Source of the DNA: an uncultured Elusimicrobiales bacterium
Lineage (GTDB): Bacteria; Elusimicrobiota; Elusimicrobia; Elusimicrobiales; Elusimicrobiaceae
Length of the DNA stretch: 64,000 nucleotides
Reading direction: 5' to 3'
Assembly: GCA_944324115.1 (NCBI GenBank)
Contig: CALUVB010000005.1
Location: 1 to 64,000, forward strand
The notes beneath the pieces were generated by a model, which saw only the letters and a program-made list of their open reading frames with translations, did not search any database and had not been told where the DNA came from. A program made the position numbers and the translations under genes. This document shows positions 28,331-41,325 of this stretch, in pieces (positions within the stretch are counted from its first letter, which is position 1; each line of letters starts with the position of its first letter).

Positions 28331-31112
<2,782 letters not shown>

Positions 31113-32224: not shown

Positions 32225-32409
32225 ACTTTTAATCCTGTTATTATATATTGTTAATAGTGTGGATTTTGTGTATTGCCCTATACAAATTGCCTTGCGTTGC
32301 TGTGCATAAGTTTGTTTTTTTATAAACATTACACACATTGATTTTTTTTATGTGCTGATTTTTTAATTTATACTCCTTTTATCCACTGTTTTTTTATTTT
32401 TTATCCACA
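32225..32409. other. dnaA-dnaN intergenic region with DnaA boxes
   Basis: DnaA-box matches occur here: TTATGCACA on the minus strand (plus-strand TGTGCATAA, 32301-32309), TTATCCACT (32379-32387, one mismatch) and TTATCCACA (32401-32409, inside the dnaA end). The stretch is AT-rich with long T-runs. It could be one half of a two-part origin, as in Bacillus, or a site for DnaA autoregulation. Confidence 0.6.
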
Positions 32410-33758
32410 GCTTTAATGTCACTGATAATTTGGTTAATTTCTGCAGAGAAGAAAGGATCTTCTTTTATTTTTTGTTTAACTATATCTCTTGCGTATAAAA
32501 CAGTGGTGTGATCGCGGTTAAATTCACGACCTATTTCCGGCAAAGACAAATCAGTTAATTCTGTACATAAGAACATGGCAATTTGTCTAGGCCAAGCGAC
32601 CGATTGTGTTTTGCGTTTCGAGGTAAAATCTTCTATATTTATCCGCGAATGTTTCCCTACTACTTTTTTAATGGCATTTACATTTACCGCCAAGCGTTGT
32701 TCTTCTTGAATTAGAATATCTGAGAGTAATTCTTTGGCTATGGGGATAGTGGGGGTGACTCCATGAGTACTACAATATGATACTAAGCGAAACAGAGAAC
32801 CTTCCAATTCCCTAATATTTGTTTGTATACCTTCTGCAATAAAAGAAATTACATCGTCTCCAATATCAAAATGAATAGAGTCACGTTTCTGACGTAAAAT
32901 TGCAATACGGGTTTCTAAATTCGGTTTTTTGATTTCCGTAATAATTCCAGAAAGCAGACGAGAGGACAAACGTTCGTCTAAAGCTAATTGCTGCGGAGTT
33001 CTGTCTGAAGACAAAACAATTTGTTTGCGGCTTTCAAATAACGCATTAAACGTATAAAAAAATTCCATTTCGCTGGCGGATTTTCCGGCAACAAATTGAA
33101 TATCGTCCATTAAAAAACAATCCAAAGAGCGATATTTTTTACGAAAACTTTCTGAAGATTTATTTTGCAAAGCTTCTATATATTCGCCTACAAATTCTTC
33201 CCCAGACATATAAAGTACGCGCGCATTCGGATTTTGCTGTAAAATCTGGTTACCGATTGCATGCAAAAGATGGGTTTTTCCTAATCCCGGCGTAGAATAA
33301 AATACTAAGGGATTATTTTTGCGGTCTCCCATTTTATTTACTACCGCCTGTGCCGCTTTGTAAGCAAAGCGGTTGGAAGGGGATTCTATAAAATTATCAA
33401 ATCGGTATGAAGAATTAAGCCGGGCCGGAAACGGATTTTTTACTATTACCGGCGCCGGGGCAGGAGCTTGGATAATCCTTTCTATGGCGTCATGCGGATC
33501 CGGATTCGTTTCTTTTATAATATACAGAACGTTAATTTCTTGGCCCGTGTGTTGCAAAAAAGCGTCTTTAATAATCTGTTCATAGCGGTTTTGTATGGTA
33601 TTTTTCCAGACGGAGTTGGGTAATTGTATAGATAATACATTATCCTGAAAAGTAAATACTACCGGCTTAAACCACATGGTAAAGGTATCTTTGCCTAGAA
33701 TTTTTTCAATTTCGGAAAATATAGGAGCGAGATCTTCGCTGTTTGAGAGAGTGTCCAC
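32394..33758 (-). CDS. dnaA: Chromosomal replication initiator DnaA
   Basis: The 454-residue AAA+ protein opens the origin. It has an N-terminal domain for DnaB and partner contact (1-85), a short linker, the AAA+ core with Walker [16 protein letters not shown] (about 155-170) and Walker [10 protein letters not shown], and the DNA-binding domain with the DnaA signature [21 protein letters not shown] (about 410-430). The start is a GTG at 33758: no in-frame ATG follows in the N-terminal domain, and GGCGG lies about eight bases upstream. The 3' end contains a DnaA box. It is the first gene of the minus-strand group leading away from the proposed origin. Confidence 0.97.
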
Positions 33759-34194
33759 TGCTTTACCGCCATAAATTAAGATATATTACAATCTTACTAA
33801 TTATTGAATTCAGCGTCAATAAAATGAAGCGGTTTTGTAGTTTAAATAAATAGAAAAGCATAAAAGAGGCATTTTTTTAACAATCAAATACCCCTCCCTC
33901 TAATGGAGGTGCGTAAAGCGTAAATTCTTTAATTTTAGCCCAAAAAAATAAAAAATAGAGTTATCCACAGTTTTTGTAACTCCTAATTACTTTTTATATC
34001 TTGTTGTAGAAAAAGAAAGGTTTTATAATAGCAACATATAAATATAGTATAATTAAATAGGAATTTTTCTTATTTAATTTTATATTGTATACATATATTT
34101 TGGGCTGGGAAAGAAAGTATAATACGGTATAAGGTAACATATATATAATATGTATATATGTTTGTTTATGTAAATTATAAAGAGGGAGTGTTTT
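33759..34194. other. Candidate oriC: AT-rich divergent gap with a DnaA box
   Basis: The 436-bp gap separates the minus-strand genes (dnaA side) from the plus-strand genes. It carries a perfect DnaA box TTATCCACA (33961-33969) and a very AT-rich block (about 34020-34180) with many TATAAT-like stretches suited to unwinding. Only one perfect box was found. It probably also holds the divergent promoters of dnaA and the oxygen-defence genes, for example TATAAT at 34118-34123 and 34144-34149. Confidence 0.65.
33961..33969 (+). promoter_or_regulatory. DnaA box
   Basis: TTATCCACA matches the DnaA binding consensus exactly. It lies next to the AT-rich block upstream of dnaA. Confidence 0.75.
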
Positions 34195-34578
34195 ATGACA
34201 CAAATCAATGAAATTTATAAATGCAAAGTATGCGGCAATATGGTGGAAGTGGTACATGCGGGAGCGGGGGAACTGGTGTGCTGCGGTCAGCCTATGGAAA
34301 AACAGGTGGCTGGTACAACCGACGGAGCCAGCGAAAAACATGTGCCTGTTATTGAGAAAATAGAAGGTGGATATAAGGTGAAAGTGGGTTCTGTACCGCA
34401 CCCGATGTTGGAAGCACACTGGATTGAATGGATTGAATTGGTTACCGCGTGCGGACGTGTACAGCGCAAGTATTTAAAACCAGGCGAAGCTCCGGAAGCC
34501 ACATTTCAATGTGGGGCCGACAAAGTAACCGCCCGCGAATACTGCAATTTGCACGGTTTGTGGGAAAAAGAAAATTAA
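34195..34578 (+). CDS. dfx: Desulfoferrodoxin (superoxide reductase)
   Basis: The 127-residue non-haem iron protein reduces superoxide to hydrogen peroxide without making oxygen, a trait of anaerobes. The N-terminal desulforedoxin domain has the FeS4 ligands C10, C13, C29 and C30. The catalytic centre has H49, H69, H75, C117 and H120, with the E47-K48 pair that helps protonation. It is therefore a two-iron enzyme of full length. AGAGGGAG lies upstream of the ATG and a strong terminator follows. Flavodiiron protein, flavin reductase and rubredoxin genes come next, giving the probable electron donor and partner enzymes. The symbol follows common usage. Confidence 0.96.
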
Positions 34579-34648: not shown

Positions 34649-35839
34649 ATGCAGGCGGTTAAAATAACAGACAAAGTATATTGGGTGGGGGCTATTGATT
34701 GGAATATACGCGATTTTCATGGATATTCCACCAAACGCGGTACCACCTATAATGCGTTTTTGGTGTTAAGCGGCAAACCAACCTTAATTGATACAGTTAA
34801 AAAAGAGTTTTATCCTGAAATGATGGCGCGTATTGCCAGCATTATAGACCCTAAAAAAATTGAAATAATTATTTCTAATCATTCGGAAATGGATCATTCC
34901 GGCGCTTTGCCGCAGGCAGTGGCCGCTATACAGCCGAAAGAAATTTATTGTTCGGATATGGGTCTTAAAAATTTAACCGCCCAGCTTTATCCTCAGTTTG
35001 AAATGAAACCCGTAAAAACCGGCGATCGTATAGACGTTGGCGGGGACAGTATTTCTTTTGTGGAAGCGCGCATGCTGCATTGGCCGGACAGTATGTTTTC
35101 TTATTTAGAGAAAGAAAACATACTTTTTACTAATGACGTATTTGGCATGCATTATGCCACCGGAAAACTGTTTGATGATGAAAATGAAGAAAGAATGTGG
35201 CTTTATGAAGCGGAAAAATATTATGCCAATATTGTATTGCCATATTCTGACATTGTGTTGCGCTTTTTAGACAATGTGCAAAAAATGGGTCTCTCTCCCA
35301 AAATGATTGCTCCGGATCATGGCTTTATTTGGCGTAAAGACCCTTCTAAAATCATTAATTTGTATGCCAAATGGGCTTCCCAAGCGCCTAAGAATAAAGC
35401 CATAGTCGTATATGATACGATGTGGGGTAGTACGCAGAAAATGGCGGAGTATGTGGTGGAAGGGTTGCGCCAGGGGGGTACGGAAGTGAAGCAGCTGTCC
35501 ATGCACGCTTGCCACCGCAGCGATGTGGCAACGGAATTGTTAGACAGCAGCGGTCTTGTTATTGGCTCGCCAGTATTAAATTCTGAAATTTTCCCGGCCA
35601 TGGCAGACGTGCTGTGTTATTTAAAGGGCTTAAAGAAAAAGAATTTAGTGGGTGGCGCTTTTGGTTCGTATGGGTGGAATCCGGGGCCGATAAATACGCT
35701 GTCGGATATGCTTAAAGCTATGAATGTGGAACAAGTGGCTCCTGTAGTCAGCTCTAAGTTTGTGCCTGATGAAGGGGTATTGAAAGCTTGTAGTGAGCTG
35801 GGCTTGACCATAAGCAAAAAAATTGCGGAAAAACTATAA
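34649..35839 (+). CDS. Flavodiiron protein (A-type flavoprotein, oxygen/NO reductase)
   Basis: The 396-residue soluble enzyme reduces O2 to water and/or NO to N2O. The metallo-beta-lactamase-like domain keeps the di-iron ligands H78, E80, D82 (HSEMDH), H144, D163 and the His of APDHGFIW. The C-terminal flavodoxin domain starts near 248 (AIVVYDTMWGSTQKMAEYV) with the FMN phosphate loop. Rubredoxin is the usual electron donor, and a rubredoxin gene lies 630 bp downstream with a flavin reductase between. An AGAGGAGAAG site precedes the ATG. Whether O2 or NO is preferred cannot be read from the sequence. Confidence 0.95.
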   Translation: MQAVKITDKVYWVGAIDWNIRDFHGYSTKRGTTYNAFLVLSGKPTLIDTVKKEFYPEMMARIASIIDPKKIEIIISNHSEMDHSGALPQAVAAIQPKEIYCSDMGLKNLTAQLYPQFEMKPVKTGDRIDVGGDSISFVEARMLHWPDSMFSYLEKENILFTNDVFGMHYATGKLFDDENEERMWLYEAEKYYANIVLPYSDIVLRFLDNVQKMGLSPKMIAPDHGFIWRKDPSKIINLYAKWASQAPKNKAIVVYDTMWGSTQKMAEYVVEGLRQGGTEVKQLSMHACHRSDVATELLDSSGLVIGSPVLNSEIFPAMADVLCYLKGLKKKNLVGGAFGSYGWNPGPINTLSDMLKAMNVEQVAPVVSSKFVPDEGVLKACSELGLTISKKIAEKL

Positions 35840-36920: not shown

Positions 36921-38024
36921 ATGAAGATTTTATATGTATGCACTACTACGGATATGGGCGGGGCGGAGACGGCTTTGCGCGCGTTGGCTTTGGCAGCACA
37001 CAAGCAAGGACATAGCGTAAAAGTTATTTCATTGAAGCCGCTTGGCAGTATAGGCCGGGATATGCAGCAGCAAGGGCTGGAAGTGTTTTCCTTGGACATG
37101 GTTGGCAAGCTAAATCCATTGGAAACGGCGGGCGTATTGGGGCGTTTGATCCAAGAAATAGAATCGTTTCAGCCAGCCGTAGTGCATGCTTTTTTGTACC
37201 GGGCGATCCAATTGTGCCGTCTGGCAAAAAGAAAAATCCCCTGCCGTCTGATTACCACTCCTCATTATGATTTATCGCACAAAAATTATTTGTTGCGTTT
37301 GCTGGACCGGGCTTTAAAAGACGAAGACACTCTTTCTTGTGCGGAGTCACGTGCGACGGCTTCTTTTTTAGAAAAAAAACAGCGCTATGTTTCCTCTAAG
37401 CTGCGTTTTGTGTCCAACGGCGTAGATTTAAATCATTTTATTCCCGATGAAACTGCCCGGCGCCAGGCGCGTGCTCTATTGCACATTGCGGATACGGATA
37501 TTGTATTTTTGTGCGTGGCGCGTTTAGCTGCAGAGAAAAATCATTCCGTTTTGTTAGAAGCTTTTAAGGCGGTAATATCCCGTCAGACGACTGCACGGCT
37601 GTTGCTGGTAGGAGACGGGCCAGAAAAAGAGAAAATAGTGCAAATAATTCGGGCCGAAGGACTTGAAAAGGCCGTATTATTAGCAGGGGAAGTAAGTAAT
37701 GTAAAGCCTTATTTGTTAGCAAGCGATATATTTATTTTGGTGTCCTCTATTGAGAGTTTGCCGATGTCTTTATTAGAGGCTTGTTCGTGTGGGCTTCCCG
37801 CTATAGTTAGTAAATGTGGGGATATGCCCAGTGTCGTGCTGCATGGAGAAACAGGTTTTGTTTGTAATGCCAAAGATCCTATAATCATCAGCGCTTTAAT
37901 GGCGGAGTTGGCTGAAAACAAGCCGTTGCGTCAAAGAATGGGGCAGGCGGCCCGCAGACGTATAGAACGATATTATACCTCTCCAGAACAAATTTATTTA
38001 AAAATTTATAAAGAAATACAATAG
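36921..38024 (+). CDS. GT4-family glycosyltransferase
   Basis: This 367-residue retaining glycosyltransferase of the GT-B fold has the N-terminal Gly-rich loop (TTTDMGGAETALRALALAAHKQGHSV), a central GVDLNHF segment and the C-terminal nucleotide-sugar site with SSIESLPMSLLEACSCGLPAIVS, which contains the E-x7-E-like pair of GT4 enzymes. It probably adds a sugar to a cell-surface polysaccharide. Neighbours do not reveal the acceptor. No Shine-Dalgarno is visible and the -10 element lies six bases before the ATG. The stop codon TAG overlaps the first base of a parS-like palindrome. Confidence 0.9.
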   Translation: MKILYVCTTTDMGGAETALRALALAAHKQGHSVKVISLKPLGSIGRDMQQQGLEVFSLDMVGKLNPLETAGVLGRLIQEIESFQPAVVHAFLYRAIQLCRLAKRKIPCRLITTPHYDLSHKNYLLRLLDRALKDEDTLSCAESRATASFLEKKQRYVSSKLRFVSNGVDLNHFIPDETARRQARALLHIADTDIVFLCVARLAAEKNHSVLLEAFKAVISRQTTARLLLVGDGPEKEKIVQIIRAEGLEKAVLLAGEVSNVKPYLLASDIFILVSSIESLPMSLLEACSCGLPAIVSKCGDMPSVVLHGETGFVCNAKDPIIISALMAELAENKPLRQRMGQAARRRIERYYTSPEQIYLKIYKEIQ

Positions 38025-38039
38025 TTTTCACGTGGAAAC
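38024..38039. repeat. parS-like centromere site 1
   Basis: GTTTTCACGTGGAAAC is an inverted repeat with one mismatch around the CACGTG core, close to the bacterial parS consensus. It lies between the glycosyltransferase stop and lepB. Confidence 0.75.
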
Positions 38040-38049
38040 CGGAGAATAT

Positions 38050-39030
38050 ATGGAGCAAAAACTTTTTACAGTTGCTTGTATTATGTATGTTTTTTCTTGG
38101 GGAAGTAAAAGGCTTTTTCAGAAAAAACGTTTAGAAAAACCCACCTTGTTTGCCTTGTGGCATGCGGCTTTTTTGATGCTGATTTTAGGGTGTGCTTATT
38201 ATGTTTTTGATTTTATTATGAGCAGTTCTTCTCCTGTATTGCCGGAGTCGGGCATATCCGCCAAGAGTCTGTTTGTTGGTGTTGTTATTATGGCATTGGC
38301 GGGATATGGTTTTGTGGCGGCTAAACATAAGAAAGAGGAAAAGCAGCGGCAGCCTTTGATTAAAACAGATTTGGAATGGGCCAATACGGTGTATTTTGCC
38401 GGATTTGTAGCCTCTTTTGTGATGTTTTTCTTTATACAAGCTTTCAAAATTCCCTCCGCCTCTATGCAGAACACCTTATTGATTGGAGATCATTTGTTTG
38501 TGAACAAAGCGGCGTATGGTTTTCGTATTCCATTGACACAGATTCGTTTTGGTGAATTCCGCCAAATTAAACCGGGTGACATTATTGTTTTTTCTTTCCC
38601 GGCAGACACGCCGGAGCAGATTAATTGCGGGGGATATCAATATGGGCGCGATTATGTAAAGCGGGTAGTTGGTATGCCTGGAGATAAAATAGAAGTAAAA
38701 GAAGGAGTATTGTATATTAATGACCAAGAGGCCCCGTTACATGGGTATGAGATTTTTGAACCTGTTGAGCGTCTTGCTTCTGACGATATTCTAGATTCCC
38801 AGACTTATCAAATATTGTGGGAAGACCGAAAGTTAGAAGATATATACGGCCTCTCTCTGCGTGATGATTTTGGTCCTGTTATCGTACCAGAAGGAAGCTA
38901 TTTTGCTATGGGTGATAATCGGGATAATTCTTGTGATTCCCGTTTTTGGGGGCCTGTTCCTAGGGAAAATATTAAAGGAACCGCTTGGTTTATACATTGG
39001 CCACTGAGCCGTATCCGTTTAATAAAATAA
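38050..39030 (+). CDS. lepB: Signal peptidase I
   Basis: This 326-residue inner-membrane serine protease cleaves signal peptides of exported proteins. Three hydrophobic segments (about 35-56, 73-92, 111-130) precede the periplasmic catalytic domain with S138 (IPSASMQNTLL), the general-base Lys (RDYVKRVVGMPGDKIEV) and the box E motif GDNRDNSCDSRFWGPV. The long N-terminal part is typical of Gram-negative enzymes with extra membrane spans. The ATG at 38050 has GGAG five bases upstream; a GTG at 38032 lies inside the parS-like site. It sits between two parS-like regions. Confidence 0.95.
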   Translation: MEQKLFTVACIMYVFSWGSKRLFQKKRLEKPTLFALWHAAFLMLILGCAYYVFDFIMSSSSPVLPESGISAKSLFVGVVIMALAGYGFVAAKHKKEEKQRQPLIKTDLEWANTVYFAGFVASFVMFFFIQAFKIPSASMQNTLLIGDHLFVNKAAYGFRIPLTQIRFGEFRQIKPGDIIVFSFPADTPEQINCGGYQYGRDYVKRVVGMPGDKIEVKEGVLYINDQEAPLHGYEIFEPVERLASDDILDSQTYQILWEDRKLEDIYGLSLRDDFGPVIVPEGSYFAMGDNRDNSCDSRFWGPVPRENIKGTAWFIHWPLSRIRLIK

Positions 39031-39068
39031 AGGTGTTGGCTTTTGTCTGTCTATGGGATAGGCTTGGT

Positions 39069-39077
39069 TTATCCACA
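39069..39077 (+). promoter_or_regulatory. DnaA box upstream of parA
   Basis: TTATCCACA, a perfect match to the DnaA consensus. Confidence 0.7.
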
Positions 39078-39103
39078 TTCATTCACAGCCTGGCGCATAG
39101 CGT

Positions 39104-39121
39104 TGTTTCCACGTGAAAACA
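39104..39121. repeat. parS-like centromere site 2
   Basis: TGTTTCCACGTGAAAACA is an 18-bp inverted repeat with one mismatched pair outside the CACGTG core. Confidence 0.8.
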
Positions 39122-39176
39122 TGTTGTTTTCTCGTCATAACACTTCTATCTAGGTCCAGTAAGCTTGTGCATTTAA

Positions 39177-39185
39177 TTATCCACA
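39177..39185 (+). promoter_or_regulatory. DnaA box upstream of parA
   Basis: TTATCCACA, a second perfect match, 108 bp after the first and in the same orientation. Confidence 0.7.
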
Positions 39186-39205
39186 GATAAAGAAATAAGG
39201 TGCCG

Positions 39206-39221
39206 GTTTCCACGTGGAAAC
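39206..39221. repeat. parS-like centromere site 3
   Basis: GTTTCCACGTGGAAAC is a perfect 16-bp palindrome, 53 bp before the parA start. Confidence 0.82.
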
Positions 39222-39273
39222 AACGCCTTGCTTTTATGTTTTATTTATGATTTAATATAGACACGGAGGATTT

Positions 39274-40107
39274 ATGGGTGAAATAATAGCCATAGCGAAT
39301 CAAAAAGGCGGTGTGGGTAAAACGACAACGGCCATTAATCTAGCGTATGCTCTTGCTTACTTAGACCAAGAAGTCTTGTTAGTAGATTTTGACCCTCAAG
39401 GGAATGCCGGTTCCGGTTTAGGCATTACATTGGCTGACGGGGAAAAATCCGTATATCATTTATTAACGCAGAACGCCACTTTTGAAGAAGTGGTACGCCA
39501 GACATCTAATGAGATGTTAGATGTATTGCCTACCTGCAAACATTTGGCGGGTGCGGAGTTGGAATTAGTAAATGTACGCGGTAGAGAGAATATGCTGCGT
39601 AATGTGTTAAATCCGCTTCGCTCCATGTACCGCTATATCATTATAGACTGTCCCCCCTCTTTGGGGTTGTTAACGTTAAATGCACTGATGGCGGCCGACA
39701 GCGTGATCCCTCCTGTACAATGTGAATATTATGCAATGGAAGGGCTGGCTCATTTTATGTCCACTATTTCTAAAATCCAGCAATTCTTGCACACCAATTT
39801 GAAGTTAGACGGCGGAGTGCTTACCATGCATGATTCCCGCATGAACTTATCCAAGCAGGTATTTGAACAGGTAAGCCAATTTTTTGGAGATAAAGTATAC
39901 AAAACTCCTATTCCGCGTAATATCCGTTTGGCGGAAGCGCCCAGTTTTGGGCAATCTATTTTTGATTATGACCCCACCTGCCGCGGGGCCAAAGCGTATG
40001 TTCAGTTGGCGGTAGAATTTTTAGCACGGCGCGGCGCCAATGTGGCTGATTTTGTCCAGCCGGAAAAAACCGATGCCAACGCATATAATTATGATTTTGG
40101 AGGATAA
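39274..40107 (+). CDS. parA: Chromosome-partitioning ATPase ParA (Soj)
   Basis: The 277-residue deviant-Walker ATPase moves ParB-parS complexes and helps set origin segregation. The Walker A motif is KGGVGKTT (11-18, with the signature first Lys), and there is a DFDPQGNAGSGLG loop, Walker B-like YIIIDCPPSLGLLTLNAL and the C-terminal FGQSIFDYDPTCRGAKAYVQLAVEFL. It has no N-terminal HTH, as usual for chromosomal ParA. GGAGG lies upstream of the ATG. It is followed two bases later by parB and preceded by parS-like sites and DnaA boxes. Confidence 0.97.
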   Translation: MGEIIAIANQKGGVGKTTTAINLAYALAYLDQEVLLVDFDPQGNAGSGLGITLADGEKSVYHLLTQNATFEEVVRQTSNEMLDVLPTCKHLAGAELELVNVRGRENMLRNVLNPLRSMYRYIIIDCPPSLGLLTLNALMAADSVIPPVQCEYYAMEGLAHFMSTISKIQQFLHTNLKLDGGVLTMHDSRMNLSKQVFEQVSQFFGDKVYKTPIPRNIRLAEAPSFGQSIFDYDPTCRGAKAYVQLAVEFLARRGANVADFVQPEKTDANAYNYDFGG

Positions 40108-40109
40108 AT

Positions 40110-41000
40110 ATGGCCAGACAAGCTTTAGGTAAAGGGCTAGATGCCTTATTGAAGCAAACCCAAGAGGTATTGGATAATCCCGCCTCTTCATCAGCCCATA
40201 CGGCTGGAGCCAGCGTGCAGAAAATCGCTTTGGATAAAATTATTCCCAACCGTTTCCAGCCGCGCCGTGTTTTTGATGAGGGAAAACTGCAGGAGTTGGC
40301 CCAATCTATTCGTGAACATGGGTTAACTCAGCCTATTGTGGTGGTTTATGACGCCGGATTGGATAAATATGAAATTGTCGTAGGGGAACGTCGTTTCCGT
40401 GCCAGCCAGTTGGCCGGGTTAAGCGATATTGATGCATTGGTGCACAAGGCATTAACTGACCAACAAATGTGCGCATTGGCGCTGATTGAAAATATCCAAC
40501 GGGAAGACTTAAACCCCATAGAAACGGCTTTGGGATACCGCAACTTAATAAATAAGTTCGGCATTTCTCAAACGGATTTAGCCCAATACTGCGGTAAATC
40601 TAAGGGGGCGGTTTCCAATTCGTTGCGTTTGCTGGAATTGCCGCAGCATATGCAGGAAGCTTTGCAAGATGGAACGATTACGGAAGGACACGGCAAGGCC
40701 CTTTTGATGTTGGCTGATCCGGCTAAAAAAGAAACCCTTTTTCAACGCATGAAGAAGACAAAAATGTCGGTCCGCCAAGCGGAAGACGCCGCTCATGCAC
40801 TCTTGCAGCCTGCCGCCGCCCAAAAGCTGCCCAAACCGCCGGAAGTGGCCTCTTTTGAAAATGAATTGCAGGCCGCTTTAGGCACCAAAGTAGAAGTGCG
40901 CTACGGTAAAAAAATGTCTAAAGGGGTATTGATTATTCAATACCATTCTTTGGAAGAGTTGGATAATTTAGCCAGTCGTTTGAAAATGAAGCTGTTATAA
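40110..41000 (+). CDS. parB: Chromosome-partitioning protein ParB (Spo0J)
   Basis: This 296-residue CTP-dependent DNA clamp loads at parS sites. The N-terminal CTPase domain has the PRRVFDEGKLQELAQSI region, GERRFRASQLAGL and ENIQREDLNPIETALGYRNL motifs; a helix-turn-helix (ISQTDLAQYCGKSKGAVSNSLRLLELP) recognises parS, and a short C-terminal domain (about 245-296) dimerises. A GGAGG site precedes the ATG. Three good parS-like palindromes lie within 2 kb upstream. A strong terminator follows. Confidence 0.97.
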   Translation: MARQALGKGLDALLKQTQEVLDNPASSSAHTAGASVQKIALDKIIPNRFQPRRVFDEGKLQELAQSIREHGLTQPIVVVYDAGLDKYEIVVGERRFRASQLAGLSDIDALVHKALTDQQMCALALIENIQREDLNPIETALGYRNLINKFGISQTDLAQYCGKSKGAVSNSLRLLELPQHMQEALQDGTITEGHGKALLMLADPAKKETLFQRMKKTKMSVRQAEDAAHALLQPAAAQKLPKPPEVASFENELQAALGTKVEVRYGKKMSKGVLIIQYHSLEELDNLASRLKMKLL

Positions 41001-41309: not shown

Positions 41310-41325
41310 GTTTCCATGTGAAAAC
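41310..41325. repeat. Degenerate parS-like element
   Basis: GTTTCCATGTGAAAAC resembles the three parS-like sites but has CATGTG in place of the CACGTG core. ParB binding is doubtful. Confidence 0.35.

Follow-up and report, generated by a model that had tools for sequence, protein, structure and literature searches.

A probable second natural form of parS, with the outer guanine one base further from the dyad and ParB residue 165 co-varying, beside parAB of an Elusimicrobiaceae chromosome

The partition protein ParB and its DNA site parS are often described as nearly universal and fixed. According to PMC7383237, R173 of Caulobacter ParB hydrogen-bonds guanine 1 of parS and is called absolutely conserved among ParB orthologs, and the residue equated with it in B. 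subtilis Noc, Q158, reads adenine 1. Here, we analyze palindromes beside parA and parB in a stretch of 64,000 nucleotides (the window) from an uncultured Elusimicrobiales bacterium (family Elusimicrobiaceae; assembly GCA_944324115.1, contig CALUVB010000005.1, positions 1 to 64,000), which is contig 5 of a 1.53 Mb genome in 25 contigs. An earlier note on this DNA had called the palindromes parS-like. This identity is strongly supported by where they lie, by their absence from the rest of the genome, by their conservation in relatives and by the way they co-vary with ParB, and we regard them as very probably real parS sites. They are probably also the centromeres of this chromosome, on which the neighboring ParB would load near oriC, and would represent a second natural form of parS with guanine at position -8 and a lysine, K165, as the ParB equivalent of R173.

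Counted from the dyad, the canonical half-site reads T-8 G-7 T-6 T-5 Y-4 C-3 A-2 C-1 and the half-site of the window G-8 T-7 T-6 T-5 Y-4 C-3 A-2 C-1, so that the whole site is GTTTNCAC joined at the dyad to GTGNAAAC. The inner core NCACGTGN is kept and the outer guanine stands at -8, not -7 (GTTTNCAC vs. the canonical TGTTNCAC). We refer to the symmetric classes as 7/7 (as in TGTTTCACGTGAAACA) and 8/8 (as in GTTTTCACGTGAAAAC) and to asymmetric sites as 7/8. A variable base, nearly always a pyrimidine, occupies -4 in both the 7/7 and the 8/8 form; in this comparison the positions of G and T are fixed by construction of the classes, so that information comes from -4 and the flanks alone. Since this pyrimidine does not shift between the forms, the outer guanine has moved outward in a fixed frame, and the initial idea that each half-site carries a 1-bp insertion was dropped. 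The sites and their immediate neighbors are:

38024–38039, no strand: parS-like site 1, GTTTTCACGTGGAAAC, 8/8 half-sites, at the glycosyltransferase/lepB junction
39069–39077, plus strand: DnaA box TTATCCACA, perfect match
39104–39121, no strand: parS-like site 2, TGTTTCCACGTGAAAACA, 8/8, a pattern match in the window and the genome
39177–39185, plus strand: DnaA box TTATCCACA, perfect match
39206–39221, no strand: parS-like site 3, GTTTCCACGTGGAAAC, 8/8, a perfect palindrome just upstream of the parA promoter-like element
39274–40107, plus strand: parA, a chromosomal ParA/Soj-type ATPase with KGGVGKTT
40110–41000, plus strand: parB, with ParB_N, HTH_ParB and ParB_C domains and the GERR box
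41310–41325, no strand: a weak fourth site, GTTTCCATGTGAAAAC, with one mismatch, downstream of parB

Sites 1, 2 and 3 (from 38024, 39104 and 39206) and the DnaA boxes (from 39069 and 39177) lie exactly where the earlier note had placed them, and the coordinates confirm that the boxes alternate with sites 2 and 3; the fourth site had been overlooked. Patterns were first built from the canonical parS consensus and the DnaA consensus strings. Searched at up to two mismatches, GTTTYCACGTGRAAAC matches the window 4 times, where shuffles predict 0.06 matches, and the whole genome holds the same 4 sites only, all within 3.3 kb at parAB. This is the clustering near oriC that a genome-wide scan, proposed in the earlier note, was meant to look for, with no scattered copy. 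The canonical TGTTNCACGTGNAACA has no copy at 0 or 1 mismatch in the whole genome, and at 2 mismatches it occurs in five places compared with four for a reversed-pattern control. The remark in the earlier note that the sites prefer GTTTcC over TGTTNC proved to be the important lead: all through the genus, and in several further families, the outer guanine stands one base off its canonical place. The absence of canonical copies also bears on one alternative, namely that these are ordinary, merely degenerate canonical parS sites read by a ParB of the usual specificity. Canonical sites have the same inner core NCACGTGN, the same dyad and the same place by parAB and near oriC, and mismatch-tolerant scoring would call them parS. 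Nevertheless, we consider degeneracy highly improbable because canonical sites within one mismatch are absent genome-wide, T-7 and G-8 are held across the genus and much of four families, and 7/7 and 8/8 sites sort with ParB residue 165, as detailed below.

The genomic setting resembles that of chromosomal ParABS loci. On the minus strand lie gyrA, gyrB, dnaN and dnaA; on the plus strand, 4–7 kb away, follow the genes for a glycosyltransferase, lepB, parA and parB, with the palindromes and DnaA boxes upstream of parAB. GC skew in the window flips sign around dnaA, and the following region is likely to be oriC:

32339–34190, minus strand: dnaA (32394–33758) and AT-rich flanks, with dnaN, the GC-skew sign change and DnaA boxes at 32401 and 33961

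A ParA with a deviant Walker A motif is encoded directly upstream of ParB. The ParB matches PF02195, PF17762 and PF23552, all above cut-off, and contains GERRFRA. All four sites (4/4) fall within 3.3 kb, with dnaA and the skew switch 4–7 kb off.

Close to parA, a regulatory role of the sites has to be considered in relation to the following element:

39228–39258, plus strand: promoter-like element of parA, TTGCTT-N17-TTTAAT within TATGATTTAATAT, read by eye

A consensus promoter scan did not list this element; a similar block, TATGRTTTAATAT, recurs in relatives. Site 3 ends 6 bp upstream of the by-eye element, many relatives have a site at about -70 of parA, and one starting at -66 to -85 is kept in most of 30 genus members read. 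Hence, the palindromes might mainly be operators for parAB autoregulation or for another regulator and not centromeres. This appears very unlikely, as further sites lie 1.2 kb upstream at the glycosyltransferase/lepB junction and downstream of parB, and as the form of the sites co-varies with ParB, with no other protein implicated; moreover, operator and centromere roles can coexist. Site 1 overlaps the last base of the glycosyltransferase stop codon, and a counterpart about 1 kb upstream of the parA-proximal sites recurs in three relatives (G193, G063, and G156). Sites with a CATGTG/CACATG core downstream of parB recur in genus g2. A reading of the palindromes as terminators was rejected because the sites in the window are not followed by a T-run.

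We next turn to the ParB residues that accompany the two site forms, of which two are central:

40602–40604, plus strand: parB codon 165 (AAG, Lys), the counterpart of B. subtilis Noc Q158 (by alignment to 7ol9) and of Caulobacter R173
40614–40616, plus strand: parB codon 169 (TCC, Ser), equivalent to position 177, a candidate permissive residue

In the alignment to Noc (7ol9), Lys165 falls on Q158, the residue equated with R173, where the canonical class has arginine, and Gly193 aligns with the G201 position, which is unchanged. Among 75 aligned Elusimicrobiota ParBs, the best separators of 8/8 from 7/7 lie in the helix-turn-helix (HTH) domain, foremost 153, 165, 155 and 169, a ranking made with hand-assigned site types that were later recomputed by script. 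K165 proteins with sites (n = 35) comprise 31 with 8/8 only, 4 mixed and 0 with 7/7 only, R165 proteins with sites (n = 30) comprise 20 with 7/7 only, 6 mixed and 4 with 8/8 only, and a single S165 protein has 8/8; these counts describe association and not frequency, as the genomes (80 of 294) were hand-picked to span types, partly by site type. The remaining 9 of the 75 ParBs have no sites in the region. Omnitrophota were sampled evenly: 107 genomes were drawn, 100 match the ParB query and 80 parB regions were read. In this draw, all 39 R proteins with sites have 7/7 only and all four K proteins with sites (G347, G352, G357, and G365) have 8/8 only. Regions without an exact site belong to one K protein (G329), two I, one V, one P and 32 R proteins. 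Residue 165 predicts site type in 43/43 cases of the even draw, and it ranks first of 296 ParB columns over all ParBs with pure site types (108/112). When motif-selected Omnitrophota are included, residue 169 is S, A or V in K proteins (8/8) and A, T, V or S in R proteins (7/7), which makes 165 the better predictor.

No recognizable CACGTG site lies near the four Omnitrophota parB genes whose product has Ile, Val or Pro in place of R173 (L347, L355, L332, and L281). Relaxed palindromes were sought for the I, V and P proteins and for the K proteins without sites, and nothing convincing emerged except in G329 (K, tagttttcacgtgacaacta).

The association was also approached from the motif. When the species-genome collection was scanned for exact copies of AGTTTTCACGTGAAAACT, 85 stretches came up, most of them from Elusimicrobiota. 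From these, 23 genomes were taken, nearly all of other or uncertain groups, and 21 have a ParB over cut-off, with K in 12, R in 2, P in 2, T in 2 and V, C and S in 1 each at residue 165; such a set tells which residue accompanies 8/8 and not the converse. Divergent Noc-like proteins account for the T, C and S cases and for one of the two P. Pro replaces R173 in the ParB of a Coriobacteriales genome (L220) and Val in that of a Clostridiaceae genome (L226); a single 8/8 site lies within about 1.5 kb in either case. Outside this set, a Subdoligranulum plasmid, whose ParB has R, carries three TGTTCCACGTGGAACA sites, matching the rule. A different arrangement is seen in the uncultured bacterium SI.B36.metabat-bins.38 (G299, CASFZN; L153, L170, and L390), where 45–46 site copies, mostly GTTTCCACGTGGAAAC, are scattered over a 1.2 Mb genome that encodes a divergent Noc/ParB-like protein; the 8/8 site occurs in only 2/78 genomes of its order, and the pattern looks like a scatter in the style of Noc-binding sites (NBS) with the 8/8 motif.

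Elusimicrobiota, from which Elusimicrobium minutum is in culture, use both forms. In 294 scanned genomes of the phylum, the either-register pattern occurs in 191, strict 7/7 in 80 and strict 8/8 in 115. The 8/8 form is present in 56/58 drawn members of the genus of the window, across which -7 stays T and -8 stays G; in the other two (G230 and G264) no parA match was obtained either, and the parAB locus is probably missing from their assemblies. Families f1, f2, f7 and f8 have 8/8, which is the rule in much of these four families, and 7/7 is found in families f3–f6, f10, f11 and f14 and, where sites were found, in other classes. Two genera nested in 8/8 families use 7/7 (f2 g12 and f7 g28). Asymmetric 7/8 sites, obtained by subtracting strict from either-register matches, occur in f2 g10 (10/22 genomes, counted by hand from tables) and in f8, and several f1 genera combine a CATGTG core with 8/8 arms. 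Outside the class, 8/8 appears only in an Endomicrobium assembly of family f15 (G167, L169), which was rejected as a carrier of both forms: its 8/8 sites lie with an f1-like ParB and Elusimicrobiaceae-like parAB on the 3,389-bp contig JAISRM010000176, a probable contamination, and its own ParB has R and goes with 7/7. Separately, 10 site copies occur in an Elusimicrobium assembly (G316, CAMVRX; L150, L155, L168, L187, L193–L195, L201, and L207) and 9 in RUG10714 (G215), many of them away from parAB. They sit in a longer palindrome, AAAGTTTTCACGTGAAAACTTT, with A/T runs, which also resembles a bidirectional terminator, and a ParB search found no ParB in G316.

The residue and the site form appear to have changed together repeatedly. 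We built an unrooted tree of 168 ParBs by a quick method with HTH columns removed, in which several long rows are uncertain; on it, K/R and 8/7 each change at least 13 times. Of 113 rows with both traits, 60 are R with 7, 48 K with 8, 5 R with 8 and 0 K with 7, leaving aside rows without sites, with equal counts of 7 and 8, or with neither K nor R. Over all branches, 11 phylogenetically separate K/R pairs, formed by our own greedy pairing, comprise 10 that are concordant in site type, 0 opposite and 1 without difference (two-sided sign test on the 10, ~0.002). These pairs speak to the possibility that the link reflects shared ancestry and that another part of ParB, e.g., 169 or 153, sets the register. 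Indeed, within Elusimicrobiota residue 169 predicts as well as 165 (52/56 each), and in family f2 R together with Ser169 goes with 8/8 or 7/8 sites. In Omnitrophota, by contrast, neither K nor R is tied to one residue at 169, and together with the 10/11 concordant and 0 opposite pairs this renders shared ancestry unlikely. Residue 165 is thus likely the main determinant of register, the second register following loss of R173, as judged from co-variation among sequences.

Several observations weigh against this assignment. Only the Omnitrophota draw is unbiased, the Elusimicrobiota genomes having been chosen partly by site type. All ten R exceptions with 8/8 or 7/8 sites belong to family f2 (nine g10, one g15) and have Ser169, which means that the code extends beyond residue 165. 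A 7/8 site accompanies four K proteins, and the region read around parB lacks an exact site for six Elusimicrobiota K proteins and one from Omnitrophota. In two Spirochaetales genomes selected by motif, ParB has R and the 8/8 site lies elsewhere in the genome, not beside parB. When only strongly supported branches of the tree are used, 5 independent pairs remain (4–5 concordant, 0 opposite; sign test 0.06–0.13).

The exceptions in genus g10 may be informative about how such a change proceeds. Its ParBs combine R165 with S169 and sit next to genera with K on the tree, and the sites of g10 include 8/8-only sets, 7/8 sites and one 7/7. On the unrooted tree, which leaves the direction tentative, we infer a K-to-R reversal that the sites follow half by half. 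More broadly, it seems fairly probable that bacterial chromosomes (in Elusimicrobiota, Omnitrophota and a few other groups) have several times independently acquired a second, orthogonal natural ParB–parS code, in which R173 is lost, usually to Lys, and guanine is read at -8, and that g10 is in mid-switch, with Arg and Ser177 and sites moving from 8/8 through 7/8 to 7/7 one half-site at a time via a dual-specificity state.

In molecular terms, loss of R173 would end the demand for G at -7, and lysine 165, in a helix that often also carries Ser at 177, would favor G at -8. The rest of the interface is unchanged, with the inner CAC and the Gly equivalent to G201; loading, CTP-dependent sliding and ParA-driven segregation would therefore be expected to work in the ordinary way. 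ParB may also control its own operon, parAB, through the site next to the parA promoter. In one subclade, the adjacent DnaA boxes may tie parAB expression or ParA/DnaA cross-talk to initiation.

The earlier note had taken the close mixing of DnaA boxes and palindromes as a sign of joint control. The genome contains 23 TTATCCACA compared with 14 for the reversed-pattern control, so that single boxes mean little; two perfect boxes in the 243-bp lepB–parA gap are unusual. In 63 genus members with a parA match, of which 30, the window included, returned a parA locus, a perfect TTATCCACA lies within 420 bp upstream of parA in 18/30, and two or more in 10/30. Boxes are present in 18/20 members whose parA is at least 81% identical to that of the window and in 0/10 below 81%, a line drawn after seeing the data. 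In these 18 near relatives, the gap holds 1–3 perfect boxes at 28–56 bp from the next site, and their number, order and orientation differ between genomes; of 3520 random 400-bp windows, 19 contain a box. That the 9-mers stay perfect while number, order and orientation vary suggests selection in the subclade. An initial view of the boxes as specific to the window, which was alone among 74 loci read, was overturned by the denser genus sample. The mixing is therefore not due to chance, but it is absent in 10/10 more distant genus members and in 73/73 other genomes of the phylum. It is these absences, and the commonness of the 9-mers (23 in the genome), that would favor chance without joint control, which we find doubtful in view of the 18/20 near relatives with their 28–56 bp spacing against 19/3520 random windows. 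Joint DnaA/ParB control of parAB would be a subclade trait at most. On another contig of this genome (G000:C3:67818-68145), three perfect DnaA boxes lie within 330 bp. Elsewhere around the origin, an oxygen/NO defense pair encoding desulfoferrodoxin (34195–34578) and a flavorubredoxin-like protein (34649–35839) adjoins the dnaA/oriC region, and a short open reading frame between dnaN and gyrB (30810–31112) has a weak DciA match under cut-off.

A second register that occurs in nature, is tied to a single residue and shows repeated origins and apparent intermediates would provide a test case for how an essential protein and a few DNA sites change specificity together. Surveys for parS with the canonical motif can miss the centromeres of whole families. 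An orthogonal ParB/parS pair might be of use for chromosome labeling, and the interweaving of DnaA boxes with the sites in one subclade offers a setting in which a possible link between initiation and segregation could be tested. A literature search, to which subscription papers were mostly inaccessible, found no study of Elusimicrobiota parS, nothing on GTTTTCACGTGAAAAC and no ParB with R173K.

Three described systems are closest. The Bsr partition sites of Burkholderiales secondary replicons are likewise 16-bp palindromes with T-rich ends and a central CG, and their six-base core rule (2C, 2G, 1A, 1T) also fits CACGTG (PMC5450999). Unlike Bsr sites, which belong to secondary replicons and plasmids, those described here have a CACGTG core and lie on a main chromosome, the contig carrying dnaA, dnaN, gyrB and gyrA; five plasmid ParB regions examined for the Bsr family gave no clear member. 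With Noc and NBS of B. subtilis the locus shares a change of specificity at the same residue (R173; Noc Q158) and the same base position, guanine 1 (PMC7383237). Noc differs in having Gln at 173 reading A, Arg at 201 and a changed base 6; the ParB of the window has Lys165 and Gly193, and its sites are confined to parAB, unlike NBS, which are scattered over the chromosome. With canonical ParABS (B. subtilis Spo0J and Caulobacter ParB, with parS TGTTNCACGTGNAACA) the locus shares the parA–parB pair, the three ParB domains, palindromes near oriC, the core NCACGTGN and Gly at the G201 position, and it differs from this system in the outer guanine at -8 instead of -7 and in Lys in place of the reportedly invariant R173.
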